Shown here one piece after another: positions 1-28,213 of a stretch of DNA of 40,016 nt (positions are counted from its first letter, which is position 1; every line of letters begins with the position of its first letter). The stretch spans positions 3,034,686 through 3,074,701 of the forward strand of contig CP070764.1 in the NCBI GenBank assembly GCA_020349245.1, given 5' to 3'. Under the pieces are notes generated by a model that searched no databases, was not told the origin of the DNA, and was given only the letters and a program-made list of their open reading frames with translations. Source of the stretch: Chloroflexota bacterium. Its GTDB lineage: Bacteria > Chloroflexota > Anaerolineae > Anaerolineales > UBA4823. The position numbers were made by a program, and so were the translations under genes.

Positions 1-702
1 GGCACTGATGCCCTCGGCAGGGATCTGCTGACCCGCTGCTTATACGGTGGGAGAATTTCCCTCTTCGTCGGTTCGATGGTGGTTGTCATCACCTTGCTGA
101 TCGGTGTGCCCGTGGGCGCGATCGCGGGGTATCTTGGGGGCTGGGTGGATGACATCTTGATGCGCATTATCGATGCATTTTTATCCCTGCCTGCACTGCT
201 TGTCCTAATCTTGTTAAGCGCAATCCTCCGAGAAATTGACGTACCACTGCTGAAAAAAAACAGCGTGATCACCATTTCCCTGGTGATCGGCATTCTTTCC
301 TGGATGACGGTAGCCCGCCTGGTGCGAGCGGTGTTTCTCTCCGGCAGGGGGATGGATTACGTTAAAGCAGCCCGGGCTCTCGGTGCGGGGAGCCTGCTGA
401 TCATGGTCAGCGAAATTCTGCCAAATGGTTTTGGCCCGATCATCGTCGAATCGACTCTGGAGGTTGGCTACGCCATCATGGAGGAATCCGGCCTGTCATT
501 CCTGGGATTCGGCATCCAGCCTCCAAACGCCAGCTGGGGAAGTCTGCTAAGTGACGCCCAGGAACACCTGACGCAACATCCCTGGTTGGCAATTTTCCCG
601 GGCTTGATGATCTTCTTCACCATCATCTCTGTAAACTATATCGGTGACGGGTTGAGAGATGCCCTCGATCCATACAAGGTGTTGACAAAGATGGAGGAGT
701 AA
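1..702 (+). CDS. Oligopeptide/dipeptide ABC transporter permease, DppC-like (5' partial)
   Basis: Inner-membrane permease of a peptide/nickel-type ABC importer (DppC/OppC family). The gene is cut by the window start: the reading frame is open from base 1 and begins with the family motif GTDALGRDLLTRCLYGGRIS, so the first ATG at 76 is internal. Several hydrophobic membrane segments follow. The cytoplasmic EAA-type loop is visible as YVKAARALGAGSLLIMVSE, and the conserved C-terminal stretch FLGFGIQPPNASWG is typical of DppC. It would pair with a DppB permease, a solute-binding lipoprotein and two ATPases. Only one ATPase (12890-13924, DppF-like) is in the window, on the far side of the enzyme cluster. 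The substrate cannot be told from sequence; this family also carries opines, polyamine-like compounds and metal chelates as well as peptides. Confidence 0.93.
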   Translation, partial: GTDALGRDLLTRCLYGGRISLFVGSMVVVITLLIGVPVGAIAGYLGGWVDDILMRIIDAFLSLPALLVLILLSAILREIDVPLLKKNSVITISLVIGILSWMTVARLVRAVFLSGRGMDYVKAARALGAGSLLIMVSEILPNGFGPIIVESTLEVGYAIMEESGLSFLGFGIQPPNASWGSLLSDAQEHLTQHPWLAIFPGLMIFFTIISVNYIGDGLRDALDPYKVLTKMEE

Positions 703-947: not shown

Positions 948-2399
948 ATGCACAATGAGAGGCCTTCCCTCGAGCCGATCAAGACAGATTACAGGATGAA
1001 CTTTCTTACAGAAGACCAGCTTGATGGACTGCAGGAAGCAACCTTGCAGGTCCTGGAAGAAGTTGGGGTTCAATTTCCTTCGCTAAAAGCACTGGAAATC
1101 TTTGCTGATCATGGTGCCCAGGTAGACCGCGACTCCCAGTTGGTCAAAATCCCACGCTCCCTGGTAGAGAAAGCGATGTCTGCGGTACCCCGCAGCTTCA
1201 CCATGGGCGCCAGGGATCCCGAGTTCGATCTGGTCCTCCAGGAAGGGATTTCGTATTTCACCACCGATGGCTGTGGTTACGAGACAATTGATTTTAAGAC
1301 CGGAGAGAGACGTTTATCGACAAAAGCGGATGTCGGCATGATGGCTCGCATCTGTGATTTCCTGCCATCTATCGCTTTTTACTGGCCAATGGTCAGCGCA
1401 CAGGATTTTGGTGTCGCCTCCCCGCTGCATGAGATCGATGCCACCTGGAACAACAGCGTGAAACACATCCAGAGCGAAACGCTGATGGGTGCTGAGCCTG
1501 CCCGCTTCGCGGTGGAAATGGCAACCGTTCTGCGCGGAGACCGTGAAGGGGTTCGCCGCAGGCCCCCCTTCTCCCTCTTAGTTTGTACAATCGCCCCGCT
1601 GATGCAGGATAAAGAAGGTATAGAAGGTGCCATGGTCCTGGCAGAAGCGGGTATTCCGGTTGGTTTCCTCGCCATGCCGACCTTGGGCACTACTGCACCT
1701 GCGACCTTTGCCGGTGCCATGGTCGTGGGGGATGCTGAAGTGATCAGCGCTACAGTCCTCATGCAGCTCCTCTCTCCGGGCGCACCGGTTTTCCATTCCA
1801 TCATGCATGCCTGGGCGGACCCCCGCAACGCGGCTTATGTTGGTTATCCCCTGGATACCAGGGCGCGTTATGCACCGGTGGAAATGGCTCACCATTGGGG
1901 TATGCCGGCATTTGGCGGCGCGTTTGGAACAGACAGCTCGGAAGTAGACAGCTGGCAGGCTGCTATTGAAGTCGCCATCGATCCATTTTTGATCGGTCTC
2001 TCCGGTTGTGAAATCGTGACCGGCATGGGACTGCGCGAGACTTACACGCTGCTTTTTCCAGAAGCGATCATCCTGGATGATGATATCTATCACCGGGCCC
2101 GTTATTCCCTGATGAAAATGGATGTTAATCCAGAAACCGTCCCACTTGATGTGATCCGGGAGGTGGGACCCGGAGGGCACTTTTTAGCACAGAAACACAC
2201 CAGGACCCACATGCGCCAGGCGATGCGGCGTTCGATAACCCAACAGCTGGACAGCGAAGGCAATTATAAAAAAGTCCTGGATGTCGCCCGTGAGAAATTC
2301 GCCTGGATCTATGAAAACCACCACCCTGAGCCGCTTGAGGAGCACATCCAGAATGAAATTAACCAGATCCTGAAGAATGCCGATCAAACCTTAGGTTAA
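948..2399 (+). CDS. MttB-superfamily (trimethylamine/betaine:corrinoid) methyltransferase, copy 1
   Basis: A 483-aa member of the MttB superfamily (COG5598), TIM-barrel enzymes that move a methyl group from a tertiary or quaternary amine to a corrinoid protein. The full length is read without an in-frame TAG, so this is a non-pyrrolysine homologue, as in glycine betaine, proline betaine or carnitine demethylases. Visible family stretches are TDGCGYETIDFKTG, FYWPMVSAQDFG, ICTIAPL-like CTIAPLMQDKEG, ILDDDIYHRARY and VGPGGHFLAQKHTRTHMRQ. GGAGA lies just before the ATG at 948. The gene is 245 bp after the permease, where I see no gene, so a promoter may lie there. It is followed after 11 bp by a second paralogue. 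Closest in the window to copies 3 and 4 (3809 and 7301). The substrate is unknown, and no corrinoid partner gene is in the window. Confidence 0.9.
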   Translation: MHNERPSLEPIKTDYRMNFLTEDQLDGLQEATLQVLEEVGVQFPSLKALEIFADHGAQVDRDSQLVKIPRSLVEKAMSAVPRSFTMGARDPEFDLVLQEGISYFTTDGCGYETIDFKTGERRLSTKADVGMMARICDFLPSIAFYWPMVSAQDFGVASPLHEIDATWNNSVKHIQSETLMGAEPARFAVEMATVLRGDREGVRRRPPFSLLVCTIAPLMQDKEGIEGAMVLAEAGIPVGFLAMPTLGTTAPATFAGAMVVGDAEVISATVLMQLLSPGAPVFHSIMHAWADPRNAAYVGYPLDTRARYAPVEMAHHWGMPAFGGAFGTDSSEVDSWQAAIEVAIDPFLIGLSGCEIVTGMGLRETYTLLFPEAIILDDDIYHRARYSLMKMDVNPETVPLDVIREVGPGGHFLAQKHTRTHMRQAMRRSITQQLDSEGNYKKVLDVAREKFAWIYENHHPEPLEEHIQNEINQILKNADQTLG

Positions 2400-2410
2400 C
2401 GGAGGGCTGC

Positions 2411-3799
2411 ATGGGCCTATCACTCGGGCCAGTTTTAACCAGACAGGAAATCGAAAAGATCCACAGCCTCAGCCTGGATATCCTGGAAAGGGTTGGTATC
2501 GATTATAAAACTCCCCAGGCGCTGGAGGTTCTGGAAAATTTTGGCTGTCCTGTAGATTATTCCCGCAATTGGGCCAGCTTACCAAAAGATGTCGTGGAAT
2601 GGGCTCTCCAACAAACCCCGCGGGTGATCAAGCTGCTCGCCCGCGATCCCGAACGGGATGTCGTCCTGAATGGTCGCCGCCCTCACCATACCACCGACAG
2701 CCAGGGCACCCAGGTCATTGATATTGAGACTGGAAAGCAGCATGGTTCAACCGCGAAGGACCTGGAAAAAGGTTTTCTATTCGCCGATGCGCTGGACAGG
2801 ATCGAAATCGTGAATGTGATGGTCGCAGCCAGTGACATTCCGCAACACCTGCGGAATTTACACCATTTCGCCACGGCCTTCAACCAGACCAGCAAGCATG
2901 TACGCAGTGGAGTCCACCATGCGGGTGAAGTTCCTTTCCTGGTTGAATTGGTCAAAGCAGTGACCGGGGAGGAGGATTTCAGACCAATTTTCTCCGCGGT
3001 TGACTGCACGATCTCTCCGCTGATGCACGATGGGCCGATGACCGAAGCCTGCATCGCCCTGGCGAAATTAAATGTCCCCATAATGGTCTATCCCATGCCG
3101 TTAGCTGGAGGGACATCCCCGGTCACTGGGAGCGGAACGATCTTGCTGCATAATATCGAATTCCTCAGCGGGCTGGTGCTTTTTCAACTGGTGAATCCAG
3201 GCACACCGATCATATATGGCACTGGAGCCTCCCAGCTGGATATGCAAACCGGTCGTTATGGCGGCAGCCCGGATGGACACATCATGCGGCTGGGATTGGT
3301 GGAAATCGCTCGTTTCTATAACTTACCCGTCAACCTTGGCGGGTTATCGACTCGTTCGCGAACATTGGATGCCCAGTATGGCAGCGAAGCGATCACCCAG
3401 GGACTGTTAGCCTACCTTGCAGGTGTCGATGAAATTTACAGCATGGGATTGCTTGGAGACGCACAAATCCTTTCCTTCGAGAAGATGGTCCTGGATAATC
3501 ACCTTGCCCACCTGCTGGAATCCATCTGTAAACCGCTCAATGTCGATGATTCTCATTTGCAGGCAGATTTGATTGAACAAGTAGGTATCGGAGGGCATTA
3601 TCTCAAGATGCCGGAGACTCGCAATTTCACCCGCCAGGAATATATCCCTATGTGGCCTCCAGCTAATCAATCGGTCAACGACATCGCCCACGAACAGGCC
3701 CTGCAAATTTATTACCATCATCAACCGCCTCCTCTTCCAGAAAAAGCTGATCAGAAAATTGCTGAGATCCTGGCAGAAGCGGACGCTTTACTGCAGTGA
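2411..3799 (+). CDS. MttB-superfamily methyltransferase, copy 2 (divergent)
   Basis: A 462-aa MttB-superfamily protein, read without an amber codon. The start ATG at 2411 is set by GGAGG at 2401-2405, six bases after the stop of copy 1. It keeps the fold-defining stretches (HHTTDSQGTQVIDIETG, CTISPLMHDGPM, VGIGGHYLKMPETRNFTR), but the TDGCG motif of copies 1, 3 and 4 reads TDSQG here and the C-terminal QKHTR motif reads MPETR. This suggests a different substrate or a different role. Position 3 of the operon, 9 bp before copy 3. As a family member it would transfer a methyl from a methylated amine to a cobalamin protein, but a shift to a non-methyltransferase role cannot be excluded. Confidence 0.88.
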   Translation: MGLSLGPVLTRQEIEKIHSLSLDILERVGIDYKTPQALEVLENFGCPVDYSRNWASLPKDVVEWALQQTPRVIKLLARDPERDVVLNGRRPHHTTDSQGTQVIDIETGKQHGSTAKDLEKGFLFADALDRIEIVNVMVAASDIPQHLRNLHHFATAFNQTSKHVRSGVHHAGEVPFLVELVKAVTGEEDFRPIFSAVDCTISPLMHDGPMTEACIALAKLNVPIMVYPMPLAGGTSPVTGSGTILLHNIEFLSGLVLFQLVNPGTPIIYGTGASQLDMQTGRYGGSPDGHIMRLGLVEIARFYNLPVNLGGLSTRSRTLDAQYGSEAITQGLLAYLAGVDEIYSMGLLGDAQILSFEKMVLDNHLAHLLESICKPLNVDDSHLQADLIEQVGIGGHYLKMPETRNFTRQEYIPMWPPANQSVNDIAHEQALQIYYHHQPPPLPEKADQKIAEILAEADALLQ

Positions 3800-3808
3800 G
3801 CAGCATCA

Positions 3809-5269
3809 ATGGTTTCTTTTACCCCTGATATCCTATCATTTCACACCGACCGCAGGATAAATATTCTCTCCTCGGAACAGGTTGAGACTTTAAAATCGGG
3901 CACACTGCAGGTGCTGGCTGAGGTTGGTGTTCACTTTCCATCCCGGAGAGCGCTGGGTATATTTGCTGATCACAGCGCCTGGGTGGACTGGGAGAGAGAG
4001 ATTGTCAAGATCCCTCCTGACCTTGTGGAGAAAGGGATGTCAACCGCACCGCGCACATTTACCCTGGCCGGACGGGAACCTCGCTTCGACCTCCTGCTGG
4101 ACGGGAAGAGATCCTACCTGGCGACGGATGGCTGTGGAGTCAAGGTCTTCGATATTGAAAGTCAGCAGCTTCGTCCTTCGAAAAAAGACGATGTAGCTAC
4201 CATGGCCAGAGTATGCGATAGTCTGCCAATGGTCAGCTTCTTCTGGCCACTGGTAAGTGCACAGGATCACGGATTGGCCGCACCGCTGCATGAATGTCAT
4301 GCTGGTTTAACGAACACATTAAAGCACGTGCGCGGGGGAACGACCGCAATACCGCAAATCGCCAGGCATATCGTCGAAATGGCTACAGTGGTGGCAGGCA
4401 GCCAGGAAGCACTGCGCCAGAGGCCACCGATCTGTGCCAACATCTGCACGATCGCCCCCCTCGGCCATGACCAGGATGGGATCGAAGCGGGTTTGATTTA
4501 CGCTGAAGCAGGTATCCCGACCAGCTACATGGCCATGCCCACCATGGGATCGACTGCTCCCGCGACACCCCTCGGTGCCCTGACAACCGGGGATGCAGAG
4601 GTTGTCAGCGCCATGGTGCTTGTGCAGCTGCTTTACCCAGGAGCACCGGTATTTCATTCGGTGTTGGTCTCCTTGATGGACCCAAGGACAGGAGGCTATA
4701 TCAGTGACCTTCCCCTCCCGCTAAACTATATCGCCGTGCAGCTGGCACATGCCTGGAAGGTACCCAGCCTCGGTGGCGGCAGCCTTAGCAGCGACGCCCA
4801 GGATATCGGCTGGCAATCGGGAACCTCCTCGGGTATGGGAGCTTTGCAGGTCGCATTAGCTGGTGGCGAGGTTTGCGGCTATCTGGGAATGTTAGGTGGG
4901 TCGATGATCCTTTCCCCTGAGCAGATTATTCTTGATCACGAGATCAGCCAAAATGCTTTCGACTTACTGCATGGATTTGAATTCAAGGAGGAAGACATCG
5001 CCCTGGACGTGATCGCTGCAGTTGGTCCAGGCGATCATTATTTACTGCAGAAGCACACCCGCCAGCATATTCGCGATTTCAGACTTTCAGGACTGCTGCG
5101 GCAAAAAGATGAAGGCGGTAAATGGCGGGATCCCAGGCAGGTCGCGCAGGAAGAATTCAAGCGCAGAACGGCTTCTCACCAGCCTGAACCACTCAACGAT
5201 GACCTCCTTGCCGAACTAGACAGCATTTTGCAGGCCGCGGAGATGGAGAGCCAGCAACTTCGAGAGTAA
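3809..5269 (+). CDS. MttB-superfamily methyltransferase, copy 3
   Basis: A 486-aa MttB-superfamily protein without an amber codon. Motifs run parallel to copy 1: TDGCGVKVFDIES, FFWPLVSAQDHGLAAPLHE, NICTIAPLGHDQDG, FHSVLVSLMDPRTGGY, ILDHEISQ and VGPGDHYLLQKHTRQHIR. The ATG at 3809 is 9 bp after the previous stop and has only a weak ribosome site, which fits translational coupling. Next gene is agmatine deiminase, 11 bp on. Probably a methylated-amine:corrinoid methyltransferase; the exact substrate cannot be given. Confidence 0.9.
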   Translation: MVSFTPDILSFHTDRRINILSSEQVETLKSGTLQVLAEVGVHFPSRRALGIFADHSAWVDWEREIVKIPPDLVEKGMSTAPRTFTLAGREPRFDLLLDGKRSYLATDGCGVKVFDIESQQLRPSKKDDVATMARVCDSLPMVSFFWPLVSAQDHGLAAPLHECHAGLTNTLKHVRGGTTAIPQIARHIVEMATVVAGSQEALRQRPPICANICTIAPLGHDQDGIEAGLIYAEAGIPTSYMAMPTMGSTAPATPLGALTTGDAEVVSAMVLVQLLYPGAPVFHSVLVSLMDPRTGGYISDLPLPLNYIAVQLAHAWKVPSLGGGSLSSDAQDIGWQSGTSSGMGALQVALAGGEVCGYLGMLGGSMILSPEQIILDHEISQNAFDLLHGFEFKEEDIALDVIAAVGPGDHYLLQKHTRQHIRDFRLSGLLRQKDEGGKWRDPRQVAQEEFKRRTASHQPEPLNDDLLAELDSILQAAEMESQQLRE

Positions 5270-5280
5270 CTTGATTTACC

Positions 5281-6378
5281 ATGGATAAATTGACGCCTCG
5301 AGAGCAAGGATTTTTTATGCCCGCAGAATGGGAGTGCCATGAAGGCACCTGGCTGCAGTGGCCGCATGACGATACGCACAAAGGTTCCCAAGTACGCCTG
5401 GAACACCTCTGGGTGACGATGACCGCGGCTCTGCACGAGGGGGAAATTGTCCATATCATAGTCCCCGATGAACGGAGACACGAGCATCTCCTCCACCAGT
5501 TATCTTATTATGGGATCGACCAGAGCCAAATCGATGTTCACGCGATCCCCACAGATGATGTCTGGTCAAGGGATAATGGGCCAATCTTCCTTATCTCCGA
5601 TCGAGGGGAATTATCAGTTACCAGCTGGAATTTTAATGGCTGGGGCGAGAGATATCCCTACCAGAAAGATCGGCGAGTGCCCCTACTAGTATCCGAAACC
5701 CTGAACCTGCCATTATTCACAGCACCCATCACGTTAGAGGGCGGTGCAATAGAAGTGAATGGCGCAGGAATCCTAATGGCTACACGCACTTCAATTGTCA
5801 ATCCCAACCGGAATGCTGGCATGGACCATGCATTTATCGATAAGGCGATTCAAGATTATTTAGGTGTTGAGAAAATCATCTGGCTCACCGGGGCACCACG
5901 TGAATTCTGTGATGCTGTAGGTGATGATACAGATTTGCACATCGACCTCCTGGCCCGTTTTGTCGAGGAAGCGACTGTTCTTTATGCCTGGACAGAAAAT
6001 AAGGACCATCCCTTTTACCCCTACCTGGAACAGCATCTCATAGAACTGCAGGCTGCCAGCACACAAGCCGGCAAATCACTCTCCCTGGTTCCCCTCCTGC
6101 TGCCTGAAAACCGGATGTATTCGACCGTTTACCAAAATTCAGCTGCACCGTTTCAGGCAGCCCTTTCCTTGGCAAGCTATGCAAATTTCTATATCGCGAA
6201 CCAGGTTGTGCTGGTACCGATCTATGGTGATGTGAATGATGCCCGGGCCCTGGGGATCATTGGAGAACATTTCCCGAAGAGACAGATCATCCCTATTCCT
6301 GCCCAGGCGATCGCCCAGTTAGGCGGAATGATGCACTGCATCACCCAACAACAACCGGTCGCACCGATAAAACTGTAA
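5281..6378 (+). CDS. aguA: Agmatine deiminase (porphyromonas-type peptidylarginine deiminase family)
   Basis: A 365-aa cytoplasmic enzyme that hydrolyses agmatine to N-carbamoylputrescine and ammonia. Visible motifs are EGTWLQWPHDD (residues 21-31), DDVWSRDNGP (92-101), LEGGAIEVNG (152-161), a DDTDLHIDLLARFV stretch (215-228) where most family members read TDGHID, and the C-terminal catalytic Cys353 in GGMMHCITQQQP. Length is normal for the family. The stop overlaps the start of the amidase by one base (TAATG), which is the classic aguA-aguB pairing and gives strong support for a two-step agmatine-to-putrescine route. What is unusual is its place inside a run of MttB methyltransferases. The Gly-to-Leu change in the TDGHID motif might mark a related guanidino substrate; this is inference. 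Confidence 0.93.
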   Translation: MDKLTPREQGFFMPAEWECHEGTWLQWPHDDTHKGSQVRLEHLWVTMTAALHEGEIVHIIVPDERRHEHLLHQLSYYGIDQSQIDVHAIPTDDVWSRDNGPIFLISDRGELSVTSWNFNGWGERYPYQKDRRVPLLVSETLNLPLFTAPITLEGGAIEVNGAGILMATRTSIVNPNRNAGMDHAFIDKAIQDYLGVEKIIWLTGAPREFCDAVGDDTDLHIDLLARFVEEATVLYAWTENKDHPFYPYLEQHLIELQAASTQAGKSLSLVPLLLPENRMYSTVYQNSAAPFQAALSLASYANFYIANQVVLVPIYGDVNDARALGIIGEHFPKRQIIPIPAQAIAQLGGMMHCITQQQPVAPIKL

Positions 6379-7286
6379 TGGAGAATATCGTGAAACGCAG
6401 CGTAACAATTGGTTTGATGCAGATGTCCTGCACAGACGACAAGAGGGCCAACCTGGAGAAAGCTGTGCGCCTGATAAAGGATGCAGCCGGGCAAGGTGCA
6501 CAAATTGTCTGTACCCAGGAGTTATTCCAAACTCAATACTTCTGCCAGGCGTTAAATCCTCGCAACTTCGATCTTGCCGAAAAATTGGATGAAGACACAC
6601 CGCTCATCAAGAATTTTTCCGAGCTGGCAAAAGAACTGGAAATTGTTTTAATCTCCGGTTTATTCGAAAAACGCGCCCCCGGATTGTTCCACAACACGGC
6701 AGTGGTTATCGATGCGGACGGAACCTTCCTGGGAAAATACCGCAAGATGCATATCCCCCATGATCCAGGCTACCTGGAGAAGTTTTATTTCACCCCGGGT
6801 GATCTCGGCTACAAAGTGTTCAAAACAAGATATGCCGATCTCGGAGTGCTCATCTGCTGGGACCAGTGGTTCCCAGAGGCGGCCAGGTTGACAGCCATGA
6901 AAGGGGCCGAGGTAATTTTAATCCCGACTGCGATCGGATTCTCCCCGAGAGCCAAGAACTCCCAGGAAGCTTTGGATAGCTGCAAAACCTGGCAGATCGT
7001 CCAGCAGGGGCACGCTGTAGCAAACGCTTGTTTCATCGCTGCGGTAAACCGGGTGGGATTCGAAGAGACACCAGGCAGCCCCGACGGAATCCAATTTTGG
7101 GGGAAAAGCTTCATCGCCACTCCTTCCGGGGGGTTACTGGCAGAAGCCTCATTCGAGCAGGAAGAAACCCTGATCTGCGAGATAGATTTAAGCGAGGTAG
7201 AACGGACCAGAAACAGGGAGTCTTTTCCCTTCAGGGACCGCCGGGTGGATAGTTACCAGGAAATCACTCGCTTATATTCTGATTGA
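6378..7286 (+). CDS. aguB: N-carbamoylputrescine amidase (nitrilase superfamily)
   Basis: A 302-aa carbon-nitrogen hydrolase that converts N-carbamoylputrescine to putrescine, CO2 and ammonia. The Glu-Lys-Cys triad is visible: Glu48 in CTQELFQTQYFC, Lys123 in GKYRKMHIPHDPGY, and Cys160 in GVLICWDQWFPEAAR. The stretches following CTQELF and the KMHIPHDPGY-EKFYFTPGD region are those typical of AguB rather than of other nitrilases. The ATG overlaps the stop of aguA (TAATG), so the two are translationally coupled. An alternative start is the GTG at 6390, but the coupled ATG is preferred. Followed after 14 bp by a fourth MttB paralogue. Confidence 0.93.
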   Translation: MENIVKRSVTIGLMQMSCTDDKRANLEKAVRLIKDAAGQGAQIVCTQELFQTQYFCQALNPRNFDLAEKLDEDTPLIKNFSELAKELEIVLISGLFEKRAPGLFHNTAVVIDADGTFLGKYRKMHIPHDPGYLEKFYFTPGDLGYKVFKTRYADLGVLICWDQWFPEAARLTAMKGAEVILIPTAIGFSPRAKNSQEALDSCKTWQIVQQGHAVANACFIAAVNRVGFEETPGSPDGIQFWGKSFIATPSGGLLAEASFEQEETLICEIDLSEVERTRNRESFPFRDRRVDSYQEITRLYSD

Positions 7287-7300
7287 TGCGGAGAAAATTT

Positions 7301-8752
7301 ATGTCAGGTGAAACCCCGCGATTAAATCCGATAAATTCAAGGTTCCGGTTGCAGATCCTGGAAAAGAAACAGCTGCAGGACTTTCAATCAGCCACCTTGG
7401 AGATCCTTGAAGAAGTGGGGATTCATTGTCCATCGGAGAAGGTTCGCAAGATCTACCAAGCACACGGGGCGATAGTGGATCCCGTTACCATGGTTGTCAG
7501 GTTTCCACCTCAGGTAATCCTGGAGGCAATGGCAGCTGCACCGCGCTTCTATACCATGGCGGCACGCAAACCAGAATTCGATCTCGTGCTGGATGGGAAA
7601 AACTTTTACTGCGCGACTGATGGCTGTGGGACTGAGACGATCGATTTTGAAACACGCCAGCGGCGTGAATCAACCAAAGACGACGTCGCAAAAATGGCAA
7701 TCGTTTCAGATTACCTTGATTCGATTGGTTTTTACTGGCCGATCGTCAGTGCCCAGGATTTCCCCGCCACTGCCCCCCTTCAAGAACTGGATGCCTCCTT
7801 CAGGAATACCATTAAGCATGTCCAGACCGAGACAGTAATGGATGAAAAGATGGCTCGTTATGCGGTGGAAATGGCACGGGTGATTGCTGGTGATGATCTG
7901 GAAATGCGCGCTCGCCCGCCGCTTTCCAGTCTCATCTGCACCATCGCTCCCCTGGCACAGGACGCCGGTGGGATGGAAGCTGCCCTGGTTTTTGCAGAAG
8001 CTGGATTGCCCGTGGGTTTTATGTCGATGGCGAACGTCGGTTCCACGGGACCGGCAACAATTTCCGGAACCCTGGTCGCTGCGGATGCTGAGATCGTGGC
8101 TGCAATGGTCCTGGTACAGATGGCTTTTCCAGGAGCCCCAACCTACCATTCGATGATGCCAGGCATCATGCATCCAAGGACAGGGGCATACCTGGGTACC
8201 GCGCCAGAAGGCGAACTGCCTTATGTGGTGGGTGTGGAGCTGGCCCACAAGTGGGGGGTACCAACCTTGGCAGGTATATTCGGCACCGATGCCATGCAAC
8301 CCGGCTGGGAATCCGCTGCGGAAGCAGTCGGTCCATTGATGCTGTGTGCCATGTGTGGTGCTGAAACGGGTTCGGGCCTGGGCTTGCTGGAGAGCTGCAC
8401 CGTGCTCTATCCCGAAGCAGTGGTCCTGGACACAGAAATATACCACAGGGTGAGAATCGACCTTGCCGGTATCGATACCAGTCCAGGTGCTTTTGCCCTG
8501 GAGGTGATCAAAAATGTCGGACCACGGGGCCATTACCTTGGCCAGCGCCATACCCGGGAGCACCTGCGAAAGATCCACTTCTCCGAGTTAACCGCCGTAC
8601 CTGCAGAAAATGGCGGATTCCGAGACCCGCTTGAAGTAGCCCAAGAGAAGCTCGATTGGATCTTGGAAAACCACCACCCCGACCCACTTGATAACAATAA
8701 GCAGGCGGAAATATCCAAGATTCTTTCCGCTGCACAGAGAGAATTCTCTTAG
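7301..8752 (+). CDS. MttB-superfamily methyltransferase, copy 4
   Basis: A 483-aa MttB-superfamily protein. The frame opens further upstream (TTG 7283, ATG 7286, the latter overlapping the aguB stop), but the ATG at 7301 has GCGGAGA just before it and gives an N-terminus like copy 1, so it is chosen. Motifs: TDGCGTETIDFET, FYWPIVSAQDFPATAPLQE, LICTIAPLAQDAGG, VLDTEIYHRVRI, VGPRGHYLGQRHTREHLR. Very close in pattern to copies 1 and 3. The gene ends with a TAG at 8750-8752, so amber works as an ordinary stop here, which argues against pyrrolysine decoding. Likely role: methyl transfer from a methylated amine to a corrinoid protein. Confidence 0.9.
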   Translation: MSGETPRLNPINSRFRLQILEKKQLQDFQSATLEILEEVGIHCPSEKVRKIYQAHGAIVDPVTMVVRFPPQVILEAMAAAPRFYTMAARKPEFDLVLDGKNFYCATDGCGTETIDFETRQRRESTKDDVAKMAIVSDYLDSIGFYWPIVSAQDFPATAPLQELDASFRNTIKHVQTETVMDEKMARYAVEMARVIAGDDLEMRARPPLSSLICTIAPLAQDAGGMEAALVFAEAGLPVGFMSMANVGSTGPATISGTLVAADAEIVAAMVLVQMAFPGAPTYHSMMPGIMHPRTGAYLGTAPEGELPYVVGVELAHKWGVPTLAGIFGTDAMQPGWESAAEAVGPLMLCAMCGAETGSGLGLLESCTVLYPEAVVLDTEIYHRVRIDLAGIDTSPGAFALEVIKNVGPRGHYLGQRHTREHLRKIHFSELTAVPAENGGFRDPLEVAQEKLDWILENHHPDPLDNNKQAEISKILSAAQREFS

Positions 8753-8767
8753 CTGGAGTACTCTTCA

Positions 8768-10204
8768 ATGAAAACCTATCTTCAAGTACTCTCAGAAGAC
8801 GAAAAATCACAGGTTCATGAGCGTTCCCTGGAGATCCTGGCCAAAACCGGCATCCGCGTGGATACAGCAACTGGCAGGCAGCTGCTGGAATCTGCAGGTG
8901 CTGAAGTGAACCAGGAAACGAACCTGGTCCGAATACCCCGAAAAGTTGTGGAGGAATGCCTGCAGGTAACAGCGAAAAATTTTTCCCTGGGTGCGCGCAG
9001 ACCGGGTTGGGATCTCGAGATGAATGCCGGTAATTTTACACTTTGCGCAGATGGTGAGGGAATATTCGTTGTTGACGCCGAGACCGGAGACAGGCGACCA
9101 AGCACATCCCGGGATTGGCAAAAAGCAACGCGCCTGATCGATGCAGTAGATGAGATCGGGATTTATTGGTCAATGGTGGAAAGGAGTGATCAAGCTCCCG
9201 AACCCACCCCAGCAGACCAGGTCGAGTATTTCCGCAAAGTGTTCTCCAATTTTTCCAAACATATACAGGATCCGATACCGGGCAAGCAATATTCCACATG
9301 GCTTTTGGAAATTTTACAGATCATCTTCGGTGATAAAGAGACTATCCGTAAAACACATCCATACTCCTTTTTGCTTTGTCCCCAGTCTCCTCTGGTGATT
9401 GACCAGAAATATACCGATGCGTACCTGGCGTTATTGGGTTGGGATATCCCGGTAGCAATCATGCCGATGCCACTGATGGGCGGTACTGCACCGGGAAGCC
9501 TAATTTCAACCATCATCCTGGGTAACTGCGAGGTATTAGCTGCACTATGCATGATCCAAGCAGGGGCTCCCGGGACACCAATCATATATGCACCGGTCCT
9601 AGCTTTATCCAACCTACGTAGCGGAGGGTACAGCGCTGGCGCTATAGAGAGCGGTCTCACCGGGGCCGCCAGCACCGAGATGGCTCGCTATTACGGACTC
9701 CCTGCTGAAGCCAGCGGAGGCGGTACCAGCCGAGCTCGTCCGGGCATTCAGGGAGCATATGAACGAGCATTAAACTCTCTGCTGCCAGTATTATCCTGGC
9801 CAGATATCCTAGTCGGTCCGGGTTTAACCGGCGGGTCAACTCATCTTAGCTTAGAGCAGCTGCTGATCGATGTTGAAGTTTATAAGATGGGTATCCGCAC
9901 ACACCAGGGGATTGCCAGTGGAGAAGGGCACTGGTTGGATGATGTCATCCAGCGAGTCGGTCCGGCAGGGTATTTTATGGGTGACAAATCAACGGTGGAG
10001 AGTATGCGAGCCGGAGAATGGTACTTGAGTGATTTCGGATGGCATGGCAGCTATGAAGAATGGCGAGCCATGGGCAAACCCAGTGTAATCGAAGAAACTC
10101 GCCAGCGGGTCGATGAAATCCTGAACAGCCATCAGCCCTTACCACTCAGTCCAGAAATGGAGCGAGAATTAGACCACTTATTTACAAGAGCAAAAACAGC
10201 TTGA
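8768..10204 (+). CDS. MttB-superfamily methyltransferase, copy 5 (divergent)
   Basis: A 478-aa MttB-superfamily protein without amber codon, starting at ATG 8768 after a GGAG. Family signs are ADGEGIFVVDAETGDRRPST, the FLLCPQSPLVI stretch where other copies have CTIAPL, MPMPLMGGTAPGS, and VGPAGYFMGDKSTVESMR where copies 1, 3 and 4 have a QKHTR-type motif. Together with copy 2 it forms the divergent pair of the five. It also has an extended insertion around YLSDFGWHGSYEEWRAMGKP near the C-terminus. It lies 15 bp after copy 4 and 67 bp before the saccharopine-dehydrogenase-like gene. Substrate unknown. Confidence 0.87.
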   Translation: MKTYLQVLSEDEKSQVHERSLEILAKTGIRVDTATGRQLLESAGAEVNQETNLVRIPRKVVEECLQVTAKNFSLGARRPGWDLEMNAGNFTLCADGEGIFVVDAETGDRRPSTSRDWQKATRLIDAVDEIGIYWSMVERSDQAPEPTPADQVEYFRKVFSNFSKHIQDPIPGKQYSTWLLEILQIIFGDKETIRKTHPYSFLLCPQSPLVIDQKYTDAYLALLGWDIPVAIMPMPLMGGTAPGSLISTIILGNCEVLAALCMIQAGAPGTPIIYAPVLALSNLRSGGYSAGAIESGLTGAASTEMARYYGLPAEASGGGTSRARPGIQGAYERALNSLLPVLSWPDILVGPGLTGGSTHLSLEQLLIDVEVYKMGIRTHQGIASGEGHWLDDVIQRVGPAGYFMGDKSTVESMRAGEWYLSDFGWHGSYEEWRAMGKPSVIEETRQRVDEILNSHQPLPLSPEMERELDHLFTRAKTA

Positions 10205-10271: not shown

Positions 10272-11414
10272 ATGCGTGCATTAGTCCTTGGAGGCGCAGG
10301 GGCGGTTTGCAAGGAGACCACCCGCGATTTAGCCGCCTACAGCCAGTACGATGAAATCGTAGTGGCTGACTATAACCTGAAGGCTGCCACAGAACTGGTG
10401 GAGGATATCAAAAATAAACGATTAAAACCGCTATACTTTGATGCTGAAGATTATGGTTCCATGTTGAAGCTTTTCCCGGGTTTCGACGTTGTGATCAACG
10501 GTTTACCCTGGAAATACGATCTACCCGTGACGAAAGCTTGCGTGGAGGTCGGTGTGAACGGATTGGATGTATCCACAGATGAAGATCAATGGAGTTATCA
10601 CCAGCAAGCAAAGGAGAAAGACATGGTCTTCATCCCCGGTGTCGGAGCAACCCCAGGGATAACCAATGCCATGGCAAAACGGGCTGCAGACCACATGGAT
10701 CAAGTGGATGAAATTCAGATCAACTTTGCTGCTTTCCGCTGCCCCGCCCCAGCGCCTGGCCTGCTGATAACCTTCCTGTGGGAATTCCACCCCGACACAG
10801 AATCACGGGTTTATTATGAGGACGGTGAATTCATCTGGGTTGGACCATTTGAAGGGCTTAAAACTATCAAATTCCCCGGACAAATTGGTGAGCAGGAAGT
10901 CTGTTATATCCCCCATCCAGAGACCCGCACGATGCCAAAAACCCTCGGCGCAAAGAAGGTTTCCGTGAGAGGCTGTTTCCCTCCCCAGGCGATGCGTATC
11001 GCTAAAGTTATGCTCGATTGGGGTCTTTACTCTGCTGAGCCAGTGAATATCAAGGGGATCGAAGCAACGCCTTTTGAGATCATGTTCGATCTTCTATTAA
11101 GGATGCCAGAAACAAAGCAAACACCGGTATGGGCATATGGCTTGATCGTCGATGTATTTGGTAAAGCACAGGGTAGAAAAGTTAAGCATTCACTCTGGAA
11201 CACGCACCCCCCGCAGGAAGAATGGGGCGGATCAGCCGCCTATTACAAGAATATTGCTATCCCGCTGAGCATTGGTGCCCAGATGATCACCAACGGAGAT
11301 GTCACGGCAAGAGGAGTACTCCCACCGGAAAGCAGCCTCGATCCGGATATCTTCTTTGAGGAGTTAGCCAAACGGGGGATTCAAATCGAAGAAAAATGGG
11401 AAGAAATTGATTGA
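10272..11414 (+). CDS. Saccharopine dehydrogenase-like NAD(P)-dependent oxidoreductase
   Basis: A 380-aa member of the saccharopine dehydrogenase/carboxynorspermidine dehydrogenase/homospermidine synthase group. The N-terminus MRALVLGGAGAVCKETTRDL has the nucleotide-binding glycine loop (residues 7-13), followed by DYNLKAA with the ribose-binding Asp. Motifs VINGLPWKYDLPVTKACVEVG, DVSTDEDQW and FIPGVGATPGITNAMAKRAA are those of this family. GG-rich AAGGAG lies before the ATG. Known relatives oxidise or reduce secondary amine links (saccharopine, carboxyspermidine) or lysine. Next to agmatine-to-putrescine genes, a polyamine-type or amino-acid substrate is plausible, but no partner carboxyspermidine decarboxylase is in the window. 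Co-directional with the aminotransferase 36 bp downstream. Confidence 0.85.
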   Translation: MRALVLGGAGAVCKETTRDLAAYSQYDEIVVADYNLKAATELVEDIKNKRLKPLYFDAEDYGSMLKLFPGFDVVINGLPWKYDLPVTKACVEVGVNGLDVSTDEDQWSYHQQAKEKDMVFIPGVGATPGITNAMAKRAADHMDQVDEIQINFAAFRCPAPAPGLLITFLWEFHPDTESRVYYEDGEFIWVGPFEGLKTIKFPGQIGEQEVCYIPHPETRTMPKTLGAKKVSVRGCFPPQAMRIAKVMLDWGLYSAEPVNIKGIEATPFEIMFDLLLRMPETKQTPVWAYGLIVDVFGKAQGRKVKHSLWNTHPPQEEWGGSAAYYKNIAIPLSIGAQMITNGDVTARGVLPPESSLDPDIFFEELAKRGIQIEEKWEEID

Positions 11415-11450: not shown

Positions 11451-12764
11451 ATGAGTTTGCAAGGAGAAAAAACAAGAGCACTATTTACCAGGGCAAAGCA
11501 GGTGATCCCCCACGGGGTTAATTCTAATTTCCGATACTGGGGTGATGAAGACACGATGATCATCGCTCGTGGAGAAGGTGCTTATATCTGGGACATGGAT
11601 GGCAAGCGCTACATCGACTACCGCCTGGGTTTCGGTCCGGTCATATTGGGTCATGCATACCCACCCGTTCTGGAAAAAGTTCGGGAAGCACTGCAAGGTG
11701 GAAATATCTTTGCCTGGACAACTCCGTTCGAGATCAGTGTTGCTGAACGCATCACCCGCATGTGCAATACCGATAAGGTCCGGCTGACCAACACCGGTAC
11801 GGAAGCCACCATGCATGCCCTGAGAATTGCCCGCGCATATACGGGCAGGGAGAAATTCATCAAGTTTGAAGGCCAATACCACGGCATGGCAGATTACTTT
11901 ATGTTCAGCACAGCATCCTCTCACCGGGGTGGGTTAGGTTCAATCCGCAGCCCGATTCCGCTGGCTAACACCTCTGGAATACCCAAAGGCATTAATCAAT
12001 ATGTCTTTACGGTTGCCTTCAATGATCTTGAGGGTCTTGAAAATAGGGTGCGTGCCAATTGGGGAGATCTTGCTGCAATTATCGTCGAACCGATGCTGGG
12101 AAACGCAGCCAGCGTCATGCCGCAGCCAGGTTTCCTGGAAAAAATTCGCCAATTATGCGATGAGTACGGCATCGTGATGATTTTTGATGAAGTCAAAACC
12201 GGTTTTCGAGTGGCCCGGGGAGGCGCCCAGGAGCTGTTCGGTATCCGAGCCGATCTCGCCACGTATGCAAAGGCAATGGGCAATGGCTTCCCAATCGCCG
12301 CGATCGCAGGGAAAGAAGATGTCATGATGACCATCGAGCCGGGTTCAATGGCCCACGGCGGCACCTATACCGGCAATATTGTCGGTGCTGCTGCAGCTGA
12401 TATCACGCTGGATATCCTGGAAAATCAGCCCATCTTGGAGACGATCCAACAGCGCGGAAAAGCGCTGATGAATGGTATCGCGGAGATCTTAACCGAAGCC
12501 GGGATTCCCCATGCTCTCACTGGGGTACCCAGTATGTTTGGCATATGTCTCGGCACAGATGAAGTGCCCAAAGACTTCCGTGGTTATTTAGCCGGCGATG
12601 CTGAACTTTATGAACAGATCGGCATGGGATTGAGCCGACGCGGTGTCCAGCCGGATTCTGATGGCAGGGAACCTTGGTTCCTGTGTTATTCATTGAGTGA
12701 GGCAGATGTTGGAGAAACGCTGAATATTTTTAACGATGCAGTCAAAGAAGCCAAAGGCGGATGA
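11451..12764 (+). CDS. Class III PLP-dependent aminotransferase, glutamate-1-semialdehyde aminomutase-like
   Basis: A 437-aa class III aminotransferase close to the HemL type. Visible are RAKQVIPHGVNSNFRYWG at the N-terminus, the cofactor-phosphate motif GTEATMHALRIARAYTGR, FEGQYHGMADY, the PLP-pyridine Asp246 in IFDEVKTGFR, and the Schiff-base Lys274 in TYAKAMGNGFPIAAI. GGAGG lies 5-9 bases before the ATG. Differences from true HemL (FDEVKTGF for FDEVMTGF, TYAKAMGNG for the usual LGKIIGGG) and the operon context suggest a catabolic amino-transfer role and not tetrapyrrole synthesis. It may act on the same intermediate as the upstream dehydrogenase. It is the last gene of the dense operon before the ATPase gene. 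Confidence 0.87.
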   Translation: MSLQGEKTRALFTRAKQVIPHGVNSNFRYWGDEDTMIIARGEGAYIWDMDGKRYIDYRLGFGPVILGHAYPPVLEKVREALQGGNIFAWTTPFEISVAERITRMCNTDKVRLTNTGTEATMHALRIARAYTGREKFIKFEGQYHGMADYFMFSTASSHRGGLGSIRSPIPLANTSGIPKGINQYVFTVAFNDLEGLENRVRANWGDLAAIIVEPMLGNAASVMPQPGFLEKIRQLCDEYGIVMIFDEVKTGFRVARGGAQELFGIRADLATYAKAMGNGFPIAAIAGKEDVMMTIEPGSMAHGGTYTGNIVGAAAADITLDILENQPILETIQQRGKALMNGIAEILTEAGIPHALTGVPSMFGICLGTDEVPKDFRGYLAGDAELYEQIGMGLSRRGVQPDSDGREPWFLCYSLSEADVGETLNIFNDAVKEAKGG

Positions 12765-12889: not shown

Positions 12890-13924
12890 GTGGTGAATTC
12901 AACGAACTCGATATTCGAGAGTGGGATGAATAAAAAGTCAGACGATCTGTTGAAGGTCAAGAATCTGGTGAAATACTTTCCCGTCCGCGGCGGGATTTTA
13001 AAGCGCATCGTCGCCTGGGTACAGGCTGTGGATGACGTTAGTTTCACCATCCACAGGGGAGAGACATTAGGCCTGGTTGGGGAATCTGGCTGCGGGAAAA
13101 GCACGGTTGGCAATTGCATCTTGCGTTTGATCGAACCTACCAGTGGAACTGTTGAATTAAACGGTAGTAACATTTACGAATTGAACTCGAATGAATTAAA
13201 ACTTATGCGGCGCAATATGCAGGTGATCTTCCAAGACCCCTATTCATCGCTCAACCCGCGCAAACCGATCGGTGATTCTATCCTGGCTGGTTTGAGGATC
13301 CACAACATCGGGAAAGGTAATGAACAGGTCGATATCATGAACAGCATGCTTGAAAAAGTCGGTCTTGACCCCTATTACTCTCACCGATATCCCCATGAAT
13401 TTTCCGGAGGCCAGCGCCAGCGCATCGGTATCGCCAGGGCACTGGTCCTGCATCCCAGTTTCATCGTGTGTGATGAACCAGTTTCCGCTCTGGACGTTTC
13501 AATCCAATCACAGGTCTTGAATTTACTCAACGACCTGCAGGATGAATTGGACCTGACCTACTTATTCATCGCCCACAACCTGTCAGTTGTCGAGCACATC
13601 TCCGACCGGGTGGCTGTAATGTATCTCGGTAAGATCGTCGAGCTTGCTTCTCGAGATGAACTATTTGAAAATCCACTGCACATGTACACCCAGGCCCTGA
13701 TCTCAGCCATTCCCATACCGGATCCGACCCTCGAAAGGGAGAGAATACTGTTGGAAGGGGAAGTTCCCAGCCCGCTGAATCCCCCGAAAGGCTGCCGGTT
13801 TCACCCCCGCTGCCCACTGGCGATGGAAATCTGTTCGCAAGAAGAACCTGTGTTTGAGGAGATCACCCCAGACCATTGGGTAGCCTGCTTCTATGTTAAG
13901 GACTCGAATCTGGTTGAAGTCTAG
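12890..13924 (+). CDS. Oligopeptide/dipeptide ABC transporter ATP-binding protein, DppF/OppF-like
   Basis: A 344-aa ATPase of a peptide-type ABC importer. Walker [10 protein letters not shown] (residues 64-72), Q-loop [13 protein letters not shown], signature [15 protein letters not shown], Walker [15 protein letters not shown], and H-loop region [11 protein letters not shown] are all intact. The C-terminal oligo_HPY region [15 protein letters not shown] carries the paired cysteines typical of DppD/DppF. The start may be GTG 12890, GTG 12893 or ATG 12926; AAGG before the GTGs makes these likely, but the ATG gives a more usual N-terminus. It should work with the permease at 1-702 and with DppB, DppD and binding-protein genes lying upstream of the window. 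The gene ends just before a strong terminator. Confidence 0.92.
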
Positions 13925-15632: not shown

Positions 15633-17405
15633 TCATGGGACCTGAGAAGGTGCCGTATCGGCGAAAACATCCGGGGCATTTTCATAAGCACTCGCTTCTA
15701 AATCCAGAGCCTTCGTACGAATATCATCGAGCTCCTCCGGAGAGAGCTGCACCATTTCCACCAGCTCAAGCTCTTCCTGGGTAGCATCCGCCCCGCGGAA
15801 GCCAACTTGGACGTTGCCAACCCCGGCAGCATAATACTTCAATTGATAGGCATCCACCTCTTCTAAGCTCGACTCAGCGATAACCAGCACACCATCAAAG
15901 CAATCATATGCCACGCAGGATTCCTGGTCCACCGCGTCCACCTGGCCGTAATCGGTCCACTCGACCTCCGGCCCCCAACCCTGGAAATAAGGTGGAGTTC
16001 CCACCTGCGGATCTGCCCACATCTTGATGCCAGCCATGGCTTCTTGCTGACCATGCAACCAGCTCGGGTTATCGACCAGCTCCCCATTCTCATATTCTTC
16101 CGGATACTCGCCGAAGTACCAGACATTGCCGTCGTCATCCTGGGCATAAAAAGCGATCTCAGCTTCGATCAGTTCGTCATCACTGATATCGACGATATAA
16201 ACGACAACGGTCTGGGTGCCATCAATTTCCTTGGTCAGGTCAGTGACGGTGAACTCGATGCGGTGAGGGATGTCCTCTCCATCTTCAACGGTTGCACCCT
16301 CGTAAATTAATTGGGTTCCAGGCACCAAGGGCAGCCATTCGTTGTCAATACTTGTCGGTTCAGAAAATGCTCCGGGGTCGAACTTATCAAAAACCTTGAC
16401 TGGTTCTTCGCTTCCAGCCATCGTATCCTCAGAGCCAGGTTCCTCTTCCGTTCCACCAGGAGTGCTGACACTCTCGTCAACCTGGCTTGGAGTCGTTTGA
16501 TCGTATACCTCTTTGCTGATCTCGTAGGCCCGGGTTTCCAGTTCCAGGGCTGCTTCACGCGCGGCTTCCATCTCAGCCGGGCTCATCTTGACAATTTCTA
16601 CCAATTCCAGCTCTTCACGGGTAGCATCCAAGCCCCGCCAACCAACCTGGACGTTTCCAACGCCTTCAGCATAATATTTCAGCTGGAAAGCATCCGGTTC
16701 CGTTTCGCTGTATTCTGCGGTGATCAACACCCCGGTATAACAATCCGCAGGGACACAGGTTTCCTGGTCCACCATATCCACCTGCCAGCGATCAGTGAAA
16801 CCAACCGCTGGTCCCCAACCCTGGGAGTAGCTGCCATCTCTGGCACCAGGATCGGCTGCCATCATGATCCCTGCCAGGGCACCTTTGAGACCAGAAATCC
16901 AGGCTGGCGCTTCAACCAGCTTGCCATTTTCATAAACCTCCGGGTACTCACCCATGCGCCAGACGTTGCCATCATTATCTTGAGCATAAAAAGCCAGCTC
17001 GGTTTCTACCAGGTCGCCCCCGCTGTAGTCTTCATCCCAGGTTACCACGCTTAGAACACCATCAATTTCCTTTACTAAATCAGTAACGGTGATAATAACC
17101 TGGTGCTCAGTCACCTCACCTGCATCCTCGGTCACACCTTCATAAATGTACTGCATCCCCGGGGTTACTGGCAACCAAGGATTGTCAATTTTGGTGGGGT
17201 CGTCAAAATTTGCGCGATCAAACTCTTCAAGCATACTGGCAAAATCAACAGCAGGCTCAGCGGTGGGTTCGGGTACATCGGTTGCAACTTGCGCTGGTTG
17301 AGCTGTATCGGGAGCTTGAGTTTCGGTTTGAGCGCTGGCGCATGCTGCAACAGATAGGGCAACCAACCCCAATATGGCTAATATGATTAGGTGACGATTT
17401 CTCAT
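15633..17405 (-). CDS. Secreted lipoprotein with two tandem copies of an unnamed domain
   Basis: A 590-aa lipoprotein. The start is the ATG at 17405, set by GGAGG five bases upstream; a TTG at 17417 is not preferred. Lipobox VAAC gives lipid-modified Cys22. After an acidic/Pro linker come two repeats of about 245 residues (roughly 66-310 and 340-590), joined by a Ser/Gly/Glu-rich linker. Shared motifs are IDNPWLPVTPG and IDNEWLPLVPG, TDLVKEIDG and TDLTKEIDG, AFYAQDNDGNVW and AFYAQDDDGNVW, ADPGARDG and ADPQVGTP, QGWGPAV and QGWGPEV, DQETCVPADCYTGVL and DQESCVAYDCFDGVL, and LKYYAEGVGNVQVG and LKYYAAGVGNVQVG. The CxxxxC pair in each repeat could be a disulphide. Function unknown. It is in line with the RND operon but 224 bp away. 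Confidence 0.85.
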   Translation of the reverse strand: MRNRHLIILAILGLVALSVAACASAQTETQAPDTAQPAQVATDVPEPTAEPAVDFASMLEEFDRANFDDPTKIDNPWLPVTPGMQYIYEGVTEDAGEVTEHQVIITVTDLVKEIDGVLSVVTWDEDYSGGDLVETELAFYAQDNDGNVWRMGEYPEVYENGKLVEAPAWISGLKGALAGIMMAADPGARDGSYSQGWGPAVGFTDRWQVDMVDQETCVPADCYTGVLITAEYSETEPDAFQLKYYAEGVGNVQVGWRGLDATREELELVEIVKMSPAEMEAAREAALELETRAYEISKEVYDQTTPSQVDESVSTPGGTEEEPGSEDTMAGSEEPVKVFDKFDPGAFSEPTSIDNEWLPLVPGTQLIYEGATVEDGEDIPHRIEFTVTDLTKEIDGTQTVVVYIVDISDDELIEAEIAFYAQDDDGNVWYFGEYPEEYENGELVDNPSWLHGQQEAMAGIKMWADPQVGTPPYFQGWGPEVEWTDYGQVDAVDQESCVAYDCFDGVLVIAESSLEEVDAYQLKYYAAGVGNVQVGFRGADATQEELELVEMVQLSPEELDDIRTKALDLEASAYENAPDVFADTAPSQVP

Positions 17406-17485
17406 CAATTCCTCCAATGGAAAGATAACAATGTGTGGATAATCATGGTAATTTCTTATTCCATGTTCCCCATAAGTCTAATTTG

Positions 17486-17580
17486 TCATTCTAAACGAGG
17501 TGTAAACGAAGAATCTCTCATGGCCCGGATATGTTCCTTTGCTTGATGGAGATTCTTCGTTGATTCATACCTCAGAATGA
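17486..17580. repeat. 95-bp near-symmetrical inverted repeat
   Basis: Two arms of 32 bases each, 17486-17517 and 17549-17580, facing each other across 31 bases. Arm ends match perfectly: TCATTCT at the outer 7 positions and CGAAGAATCTC at the inner 11; the middle 14 bases differ. This layout suggests a small mobile palindromic repeat (MITE- or REP-like) and not a terminator. Family membership needs other copies in the genome. Confidence 0.65.
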
Positions 17581-17629
17581 TCGCTGGGCTGATCTAAATC
17601 CGCTAGCTTCCCAGGATCATTTTCATTCT

Positions 17630-21519: not shown

Positions 21520-21546
21520 TTTTTTCCTCCGAATGCTTATCTGTAC

Positions 21547-27340: not shown

Positions 27341-27425
27341 CAGGAGGTGATTATCGAAGGAACCCCGGCTGGCTCAAAACAAAATAATCTCGGATTTATT
27401 GCAACTAATTTGAGGAGAATTCAAG

Positions 27426-28121: not shown

Positions 28122-28131
28122 ATTTATCACG

Positions 28132-28165
28132 GAGGTAATCCGGATAAGTTTCCGCGGATTACCTC
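28132..28165 (+). promoter_or_regulatory. Strong hairpin between ECF S and T genes
   Basis: An 11-bp perfect stem GAGGTAATCCG/CGGATTACCTC with a 12-base loop. Only a weak T-run follows. It is in a 92-bp gap inside an apparent operon and could lower or stabilise transcription of one side; alternatively, a partial terminator. Confidence 0.5.
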
Positions 28166-28213
28166 TACTTAATTTAGATCGATCGGAAATATATTCGTCC
28201 AAGTATTCACCAG

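Follow-up and report, generated by a model that had tools for sequence, protein, structure and literature searches.

Why would a bacterium encode five corrinoid-type methyltransferases side by side with no corrinoid protein in view? The question is raised by a 40,016-nucleotide stretch of a Chloroflexota genome (GTDB lineage Bacteria; Chloroflexota; Anaerolineae; Anaerolineales; UBA4823; GCA_020349245.1, contig CP070764.1), which as a whole we call the window and which covers positions 3,034,686-3,074,701 of a 4.5-Mb scaffolded assembly (92.7% complete, 5.4% contamination). A first-pass annotation of its letters described five paralogues of the MttB superfamily (c1 to c5) in one operon and proposed that their corrinoid partner lies upstream, that one partner serves all five, or that the enzymes catalyse something other than corrinoid methyl transfer. 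We find it fairly probable that c1-c5, as MttB-superfamily methyltransferase homologues, belong to a transporter-linked operon led by its own corrinoid-protein gene (mttC) beyond an assembly gap, and that they demethylate a quaternary, probably guanidino, amine. The apparently missing corrinoid protein is thus likely to be mostly an assembly effect. The genes concerned are the following, in window positions.

1..702, + strand: oppC-like permease, 5' part missing (PF00528; from the first ATG, 76% identical to oppC residues 103-309 of the relative G251)
948..2399, + strand: MttB paralogue c1, 483 amino acids (aa) (PF06253, 204 bits)
2411..3799, + strand: MttB paralogue c2, 462 aa (PF06253)
3809..5269, + strand: MttB paralogue c3, 486 aa (PF06253, 220 bits)
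5281..6378, + strand: AguA-like guanidine deiminase (aguA) with a 6-residue insertion before the catalytic HxD (PF04371, 323 bits)
6378..7286, + strand: AguB-like carbon-nitrogen hydrolase (aguB) (PF00795; TIGR03381)
7301..8752, + strand: MttB paralogue c4, 483 aa (PF06253, 204 bits)
8768..10204, + strand: MttB paralogue c5, 478 aa (PF06253, 218 bits)
10272..11414, + strand: amine dehydrogenase (sdh) resembling saccharopine, lysine-6 and carboxyspermidine dehydrogenases (PF03435 and PF16653)
11451..12764, + strand: class-III aminotransferase near GSAM (PF00202; GntE model NF041362, 574.6 bits, cut-off 525)
12890..13924, + strand: oppD/F-type ATP-binding cassette (ABC) ATPase with an oligo_HPY domain, probably the last operon gene (PF00005 and PF08352; 68% identical to its G251 operon counterpart)

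The assembly gap and the corrinoid partner

The window is one contig flanked on each side by a run of exactly 100 N. Its first base falls inside the oppC-like gene, whose frame 0 is open to the edge, so that the content directly upstream is not readable from the present assembly. Genome-wide searches agree with the first-pass annotation that the window itself contains neither a corrinoid protein (PF02607) nor a reactivase (PF14574). The search for MttC-like proteins gave four PF02607 matches, namely three short corrinoid proteins and one 446-aa frame, all outside the window. Reactivase candidates do exist in the genome, as two RACo-type matches (at 67,936 and 3,872,971) that likewise lie outside the window, and both proteins are below the curated AcsV and RamA cut-offs among the matches listed.

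The window AguA was searched against 400 sampled genomes of the order at a threshold of E <= 1e-70, and orthologues were found in 8, its own genome included. All seven relatives with a match were mapped, with overlapping open reading frames (ORFs) thinned by length. In all seven, aguA-aguB lie next to MttB genes arranged as in the window, and six have MttB genes on both sides; in G182, whose contig breaks off within aguA, the c4-c5 side alone is visible. Wherever the 5' end of the operon can be seen, mttC is its first gene (four of four relatives), with the order mttC-oppA-oppB-oppC-c1 and onwards in G251, G104 and G151, and mttC-c1 and onwards in G163. The other three are cut in c3 (G210), in aguA (G182) or by an N gap 54 bases before c1 (G175). 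All four operon mttC products carry both B12-binding domains, PF02607 and PF02310, and the one scanned with NCBIfam (from G251) has MtgC as its best model, at 222.7 bits against a cut-off of 310. These results support two of the proposed options together, that the partner is encoded upstream and that it serves all five enzymes.

A corresponding piece is found in the own genome, on contig L026 (8798-14774, genome 1,607,797-1,613,773), which carries two MttB genes, mttC, oppA and about 84 codons of oppB before it ends in an N gap. The mttC at 1,610,863 is 72-77% identical to the four operon mttC and forms a joint, starred clade with them (support 99), while the other two short corrinoid proteins of the genome are 39 and 44% identical to operon mttC. 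A genome search with the G251 oppB gave 10 matches, of which the fragment at 1,613,518-1,613,769 (68% identical over residues 1-84, with the N gap at 1,613,774) is the sole close one; the other 9 are at most 48% identical. In the genus mates G002 and G001, too, this mttC follows MttB genes close to where a contig stops. Most simply read, the assembly split the operon of this species and set its two parts 1.42 Mb from each other, and we infer from these matches that the parts belong together. The observation of no corrinoid protein would then be explained by the gap, given an operon that is headed by mttC in relatives, with mttC probably separated from the array by the gap at the left edge. If the L026 contig is the other half, the operon would have seven MttB genes. 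More generally, scaffold gaps in metagenome-assembled genomes can produce a false "missing partner".

Alternatively the operon of this species may truly be without mttC and be served in trans by another corrinoid protein of the genome. Three short corrinoid-protein genes are present, 10 of the 13 MttB genes (the total of MTTB matches in the genome) have no corrinoid gene within 10 kb as assembled, and Eubacterium limosum makes use of such service (PMC8604678). We regard the alternative as improbable, since mttC heads the operon in every relative in which its start is visible, and since a gap terminates the orthologous mttC-oppA-oppB' piece and the genome has nothing closely matching the remaining oppB anywhere else.

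Two other loci deserve separate mention. One Anaerolineales locus (L043:3879-17914) runs oppA-oppB-oppC-c1-c4-c5-MttB into flavin/4Fe-4S genes, presumably HdrA-like, and then an FlpD-domain gene; this layout suggests a direct tie of demethylation to an Hdr-type electron complex. In G104, c1 is broken into two ORFs (344 and 139 aa), and behind the array stands a gene resembling transposases, with matches below cut-off to NF041680/IS701 models (L098:4958-6422 and 16882-18222); this reflects either decay or an assembly error.

The five MttB paralogues and their relationships

The five MttB-type genes described in the first pass are real. All are full length, lie on the + strand and score 204-252 bits against the Pfam MTTB model (PF06253), whose cut-off is 25. 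As had been stated, none has an in-frame stop codon, amber included, and c4 terminates with TAG. The genes are closely packed, at 9-15 bp between array genes with aguA-aguB sitting between c3 and c4 (c1-c2 11, c2-c3 9, c3-aguA 11, aguA-aguB -1, aguB-c4 14 and c4-c5 15 bp). The mechanical ORF of c4 opens at TTG 7283, and the ATG at 7301 is preceded by GGAG. No tRNA was found in a search of the window.

Membership of the superfamily does not make these proteins MttB proper, an assignment we rejected because they score 316-378 bits against TIGR02369 (cut-off 525) and contain no in-frame stop codon. No PylS over its cut-off was found in the genome (best match 22.5 against 178.15 bits). The predicted model of c2 has the TIM-barrel fold of MttB and MtgB and matches both nearly end to end.

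The relationships of the paralogues were examined in a tree built from 104 matched ORFs. One duplicate and all sequences with fewer than 380 aligned residues, which included the split c1 of G104, were removed; the remaining 98 and seven added sequences make up its 105 rows. It is a quick maximum-likelihood tree whose only support values come from the Shimodaira-Hasegawa-like approximate likelihood ratio test (SH-aLRT), and the program warned of long branches meeting in it. The five copies fall into five separate supported clades, each with operon counterparts from other families; c1, c3 and c4 are mutually related while c2 and c5 stand apart. The c1 clade comprises 5 rows (support 98) with the operon copies of G251, G151, G175 and G163, and widens to 7 rows (support 100) with the addition of L043 and the own-genome paralogue L028. 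The clades of c3 (13 rows, including the own-genome paralogue L027 and other-locus copies), c4 (11 rows) and c5 (13 rows, reaching loci titled Desulfobacterales, Deltaproteobacteria and Aminicenantes) all have an SH-aLRT support of 100. Copies from other loci, two of them own-genome paralogues, are found in the clades of c1, c3, c4 and c5. Recent tandem duplication is ruled out by pairwise identities of 26-48% and by the separate clade of each copy. The first-pass annotation had also raised the placement of the five among characterised homologues; for the two compared, MtgB (2QNE) and MttB, none of the five groups with either, and the tree partner of MtgB is a G031 sequence. Two versions of the array end c5-sdh exist in G003 (L110 and L061), with c5 copies 80% and 56% identical to that of the window.

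Could these enzymes perform chemistry other than corrinoid methyl transfer? The window is without a corrinoid gene, and the residues with which MttB contacts its corrinoid (Thr111 and Gly372) are not kept by letter in c1-c5. These letters are not kept in MtgB either, mttC accompanies the operon in relatives, and the c2 model follows MttB and MtgB over nearly its whole length. We therefore rejected this option of the first-pass annotation as very improbable.

The guanidine hydrolases and the proposed pathway

What substrate might such an operon serve? The window AguA and AguB score below the cut-offs of the curated models for agmatine deiminase (TIGR03380, 243.2 against 381.8 bits) and N-carbamoylputrescine amidase (TIGR03381, 323.5 against 410.25 bits). 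The catalytic motifs of AguA are kept: its WxRDxGP, EGG, HID and HC motifs align with those of 1xkn, and we take them to be the catalytic Cys, His and acidic residues of agmatine deiminase. All ten operon AguA sequences (from 8 genomes, two operons having a second AguA) have the 6-residue insertion immediately ahead of the catalytic HxD, and none of 16 further Chloroflexota AguA, from two families, has it; nine of the ten operon sequences were aligned and the tenth, a partial copy from G182, was inspected afterwards. The operon sequences also have changed residues neighbouring the catalytic His. Around the 16 non-operon AguA genes, no MttB ORF of at least 300 aa was found in the fetched 6.5-20 kb. 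Judged from these sequence features, the operon AguA is likely a specialised deiminase, and its target is perhaps a guanidine different from, or larger than, agmatine.

The genes downstream of the array vary. The window has sdh, and sister operons have an aminotransferase, an aldehyde dehydrogenase, a pipecolate-oxidase-like flavoprotein or a second sdh type, which would fit removal and oxidation of the amine released by AguA/AguB. Carboxyspermidine dehydrogenases are the best matches of sdh in both sequence (8deb, 84 bits; 3abi, 29 bits) and fold, where a model of middling predicted local distance difference test score (pLDDT 68) gave Foldseek values of 2.8e-25 for 8deb and 8.3e-15 for 3abi; one source calls several relatives lysine 6-dehydrogenase. 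MttB is less tightly linked to sdh than to AguA. Among 18 relatives with an sdh match, 8 have MttB within about 6 kb, and the remaining 10, several of them on short or gap-cut contigs, show none. The name GntE was rejected as a function for the aminotransferase: the score is over the cut-off, yet no other guanitoxin model matched among 10 window proteins scanned with NCBIfam.

We propose that the Opp-type ABC transporter would import the compound and that AguA/AguB would hydrolyse its guanidino group, leaving a free amine. Conversion of this amine to an aldehyde would fall to the sdh dehydrogenase or a class-III aminotransferase, and an aldehyde dehydrogenase, encoded in the sister operons of G251 and G151, would oxidise the aldehyde to a betaine-type acid. 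One shared MttC/MtgC-like corrinoid protein would receive methyl groups from all five MttB enzymes, each acting on a different quaternary intermediate or substrate. Other known non-pyrrolysine substrates bear a carboxylic acid group (PMC12155760); a betaine acid made from a guanidino compound would fit this pattern. We infer these activities, and the substrate, from families and linkage: the operon likely serves to break down a quaternary amine that bears a guanidino group, and the exact compound is a guess.

The methyl groups would have a destination, given the content of two gene clusters elsewhere in the genome.

Cluster L023: MttB, a second mttC, a RACo-family reactivase, a MetF-like protein and a homocysteine methyltransferase, with a methyltetrahydrofolate:corrinoid methyltransferase over its cut-off
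Cluster L093: CO dehydrogenase, acetyl-CoA synthase and the gamma subunit, each scoring above its cut-off, and an AcsV-like protein that stays below the one for AcsV

For comparison, mttC lies within 6 kb of 19 of 28 tandem MttB groups in the fetched stretches, which were hand-chosen, partly after corrinoid matches had been seen nearby, and do not give an unbiased rate. At three further loci (L052, L055 and L058, in G210, G133 and G192), DMGDH-like flavoproteins or ORFs of similar length (about 820 aa) adjoin c3- and c4-type MttB genes. Two of the flavoproteins were confirmed by Pfam (DAO and GCV_T), and the loci also hold sdh and gntE; they may be a second module for further demethylation to tetrahydrofolate (THF) without a corrinoid.

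One explanation that dispenses with a guanidino substrate is an ordinary multi-betaine locus, in which the MttB enzymes use several common betaines while AguA/AguB, the dehydrogenase and the transaminase handle agmatine and putrescine separately and are merely co-transcribed. Characterised MttB enzymes of one genome do differ in substrate (PMC8604678). The highest-scoring model for the aldehyde dehydrogenase of the G251 operon is aminobutyraldehyde dehydrogenase (458 of 615 bits), and the top three models for the aminotransferase of the G104 operon are "aspartate aminotransferase family", acetylornithine and then 4-aminobutyrate transaminase; aminobutyraldehyde dehydrogenase and 4-aminobutyrate transaminase are what a route from agmatine to 4-aminobutyrate (GABA) would need. 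We consider this explanation unlikely, though a serious competitor, because aguA-aguB stands beside MttB in every one of the seven relatives, because the 16 other AguA genes have no MttB ORF in their fetched surroundings, and because the operon AguA has the insertion and the changed residues by its catalytic His.

Several observations weigh against our preferred reading of an mttC-led operon for a quaternary, probably guanidino, amine. The joint between L026 and the window is absent from the assembly, and about 1 kb (the rest of oppB and the start of oppC) would be missing. L043, with four MttB, shows no mttC, although its contig stops 133 bases before oppA and leaves the 5' end out of view, and no reactivase match was found in the seven operon stretches or in L043. 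All five copies occur in the order of the window in G104 only, where c1 is split; c3 is absent in G251 and G151, and c2 in G163 and G175. Linkage to AguA occurs in 8 of 400 genomes, whereas 32 of 41 close relatives carry some MttB; the operon is not general. No aldehyde dehydrogenase stands beside the window array. With AguA and AguB under the curated agmatine-enzyme cut-offs, the case for a guanidino substrate consists of family and linkage, and the corrinoid-contact letters of MttB are, as noted, not kept.

The first-pass annotation saw a strong candidate for a methylated-amine pathway not yet described. That view is still reasonable, on the grounds that AguA/AguB is conserved and that the five copies fall in separate clades, and not on account of an absent partner. 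The most specific version would be a conserved anaerobic pathway of Anaerolineales for a quaternary guanidino amine of the arginine-betaine or trimethyl-agmatine type, with a specialised AguA/AguB, up to seven MttB (the five of the window and the two beside mttC on the L026 contig), one corrinoid protein and methyl groups passing into the Wood-Ljungdahl pathway. We advance it tentatively, as somewhat less than an even prospect. Among the titles and abstract openings surveyed, no gene cluster pairing an agmatine deiminase with a corrinoid or trimethylamine methyltransferase was found, and a search on guanidino-type betaines (arginine betaine, trimethylagmatine) returned nothing beyond a single mention of trimethylarginine.

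Elsewhere in the window, positions 26387-28990 hold a nucleoside hydrolase, a weak match to an energy-coupling factor (ECF) S-component and a CbiQ-type ECF transporter protein, with more ORFs behind them; by sequence this is a probable nucleobase or nucleoside uptake cluster. Two resistance-nodulation-division (RND) efflux pump genes of the AcrB family, with a 248-aa ORF in between, lie on the - strand at 17630-24687.

Relation to known systems

MttB-rich genomes are not unusual, with 42 copies reported in E. limosum and 82 in strain DCMF (PMC12155760, PMC9768040), and as of 2025 six MttB-superfamily members only had a distinctly identified physiological substrate (PMC12155760). What looks new here is the fixed link of an MttB array to a guanidine-hydrolase pair with the AguA insertion. 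An operon tying five distinct MttB clades to such a pair offers a testable substrate class for five uncharacterised clades.

The hydrolases themselves have a familiar counterpart. Adjacent aguA and aguB genes encode the route from agmatine to putrescine, and the operon shares with it the two enzyme families and the neighbouring genes. It differs in that its pair is below both cut-offs, has the active-site insertion in AguA and is embedded in an MttB array.

On the methyltransferase side, the MtgB/MtgC/MtgA glycine betaine system of Desulfitobacterium hafniense (PDB 2QNE/9YCE) similarly combines a non-pyrrolysine MttB-superfamily enzyme with a PF02607 and PF02310 corrinoid protein. Unlike that system, the operon has five paralogues, none of which groups with MtgB, as well as an Opp-type transporter, guanidine hydrolases and an amine dehydrogenase. 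The glycine betaine cluster of strain DCMF contains three MttB genes and two corrinoid proteins (PMC9768040).

Several substrate-distinct MttB enzymes per corrinoid protein are known from E. limosum, where a single MtqC serves MtpB, MtcB and MtyB, and where the reactivase and the THF methyltransferase are also encoded apart; the MttB genes there are in separate clusters, whereas here they are in tandem (PMC8604678). Soluble MtyB could be produced only together with its corrinoid partner (PMC8604678). Finally, the MthK-MthB choline pathway provides a precedent for an enzyme that converts the compound ahead of MttB-type demethylation, the first such case to its authors' knowledge (PMC12155760). 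The converting enzyme there is a choline kinase, while here that part would fall to the predicted guanidine-hydrolase pair.

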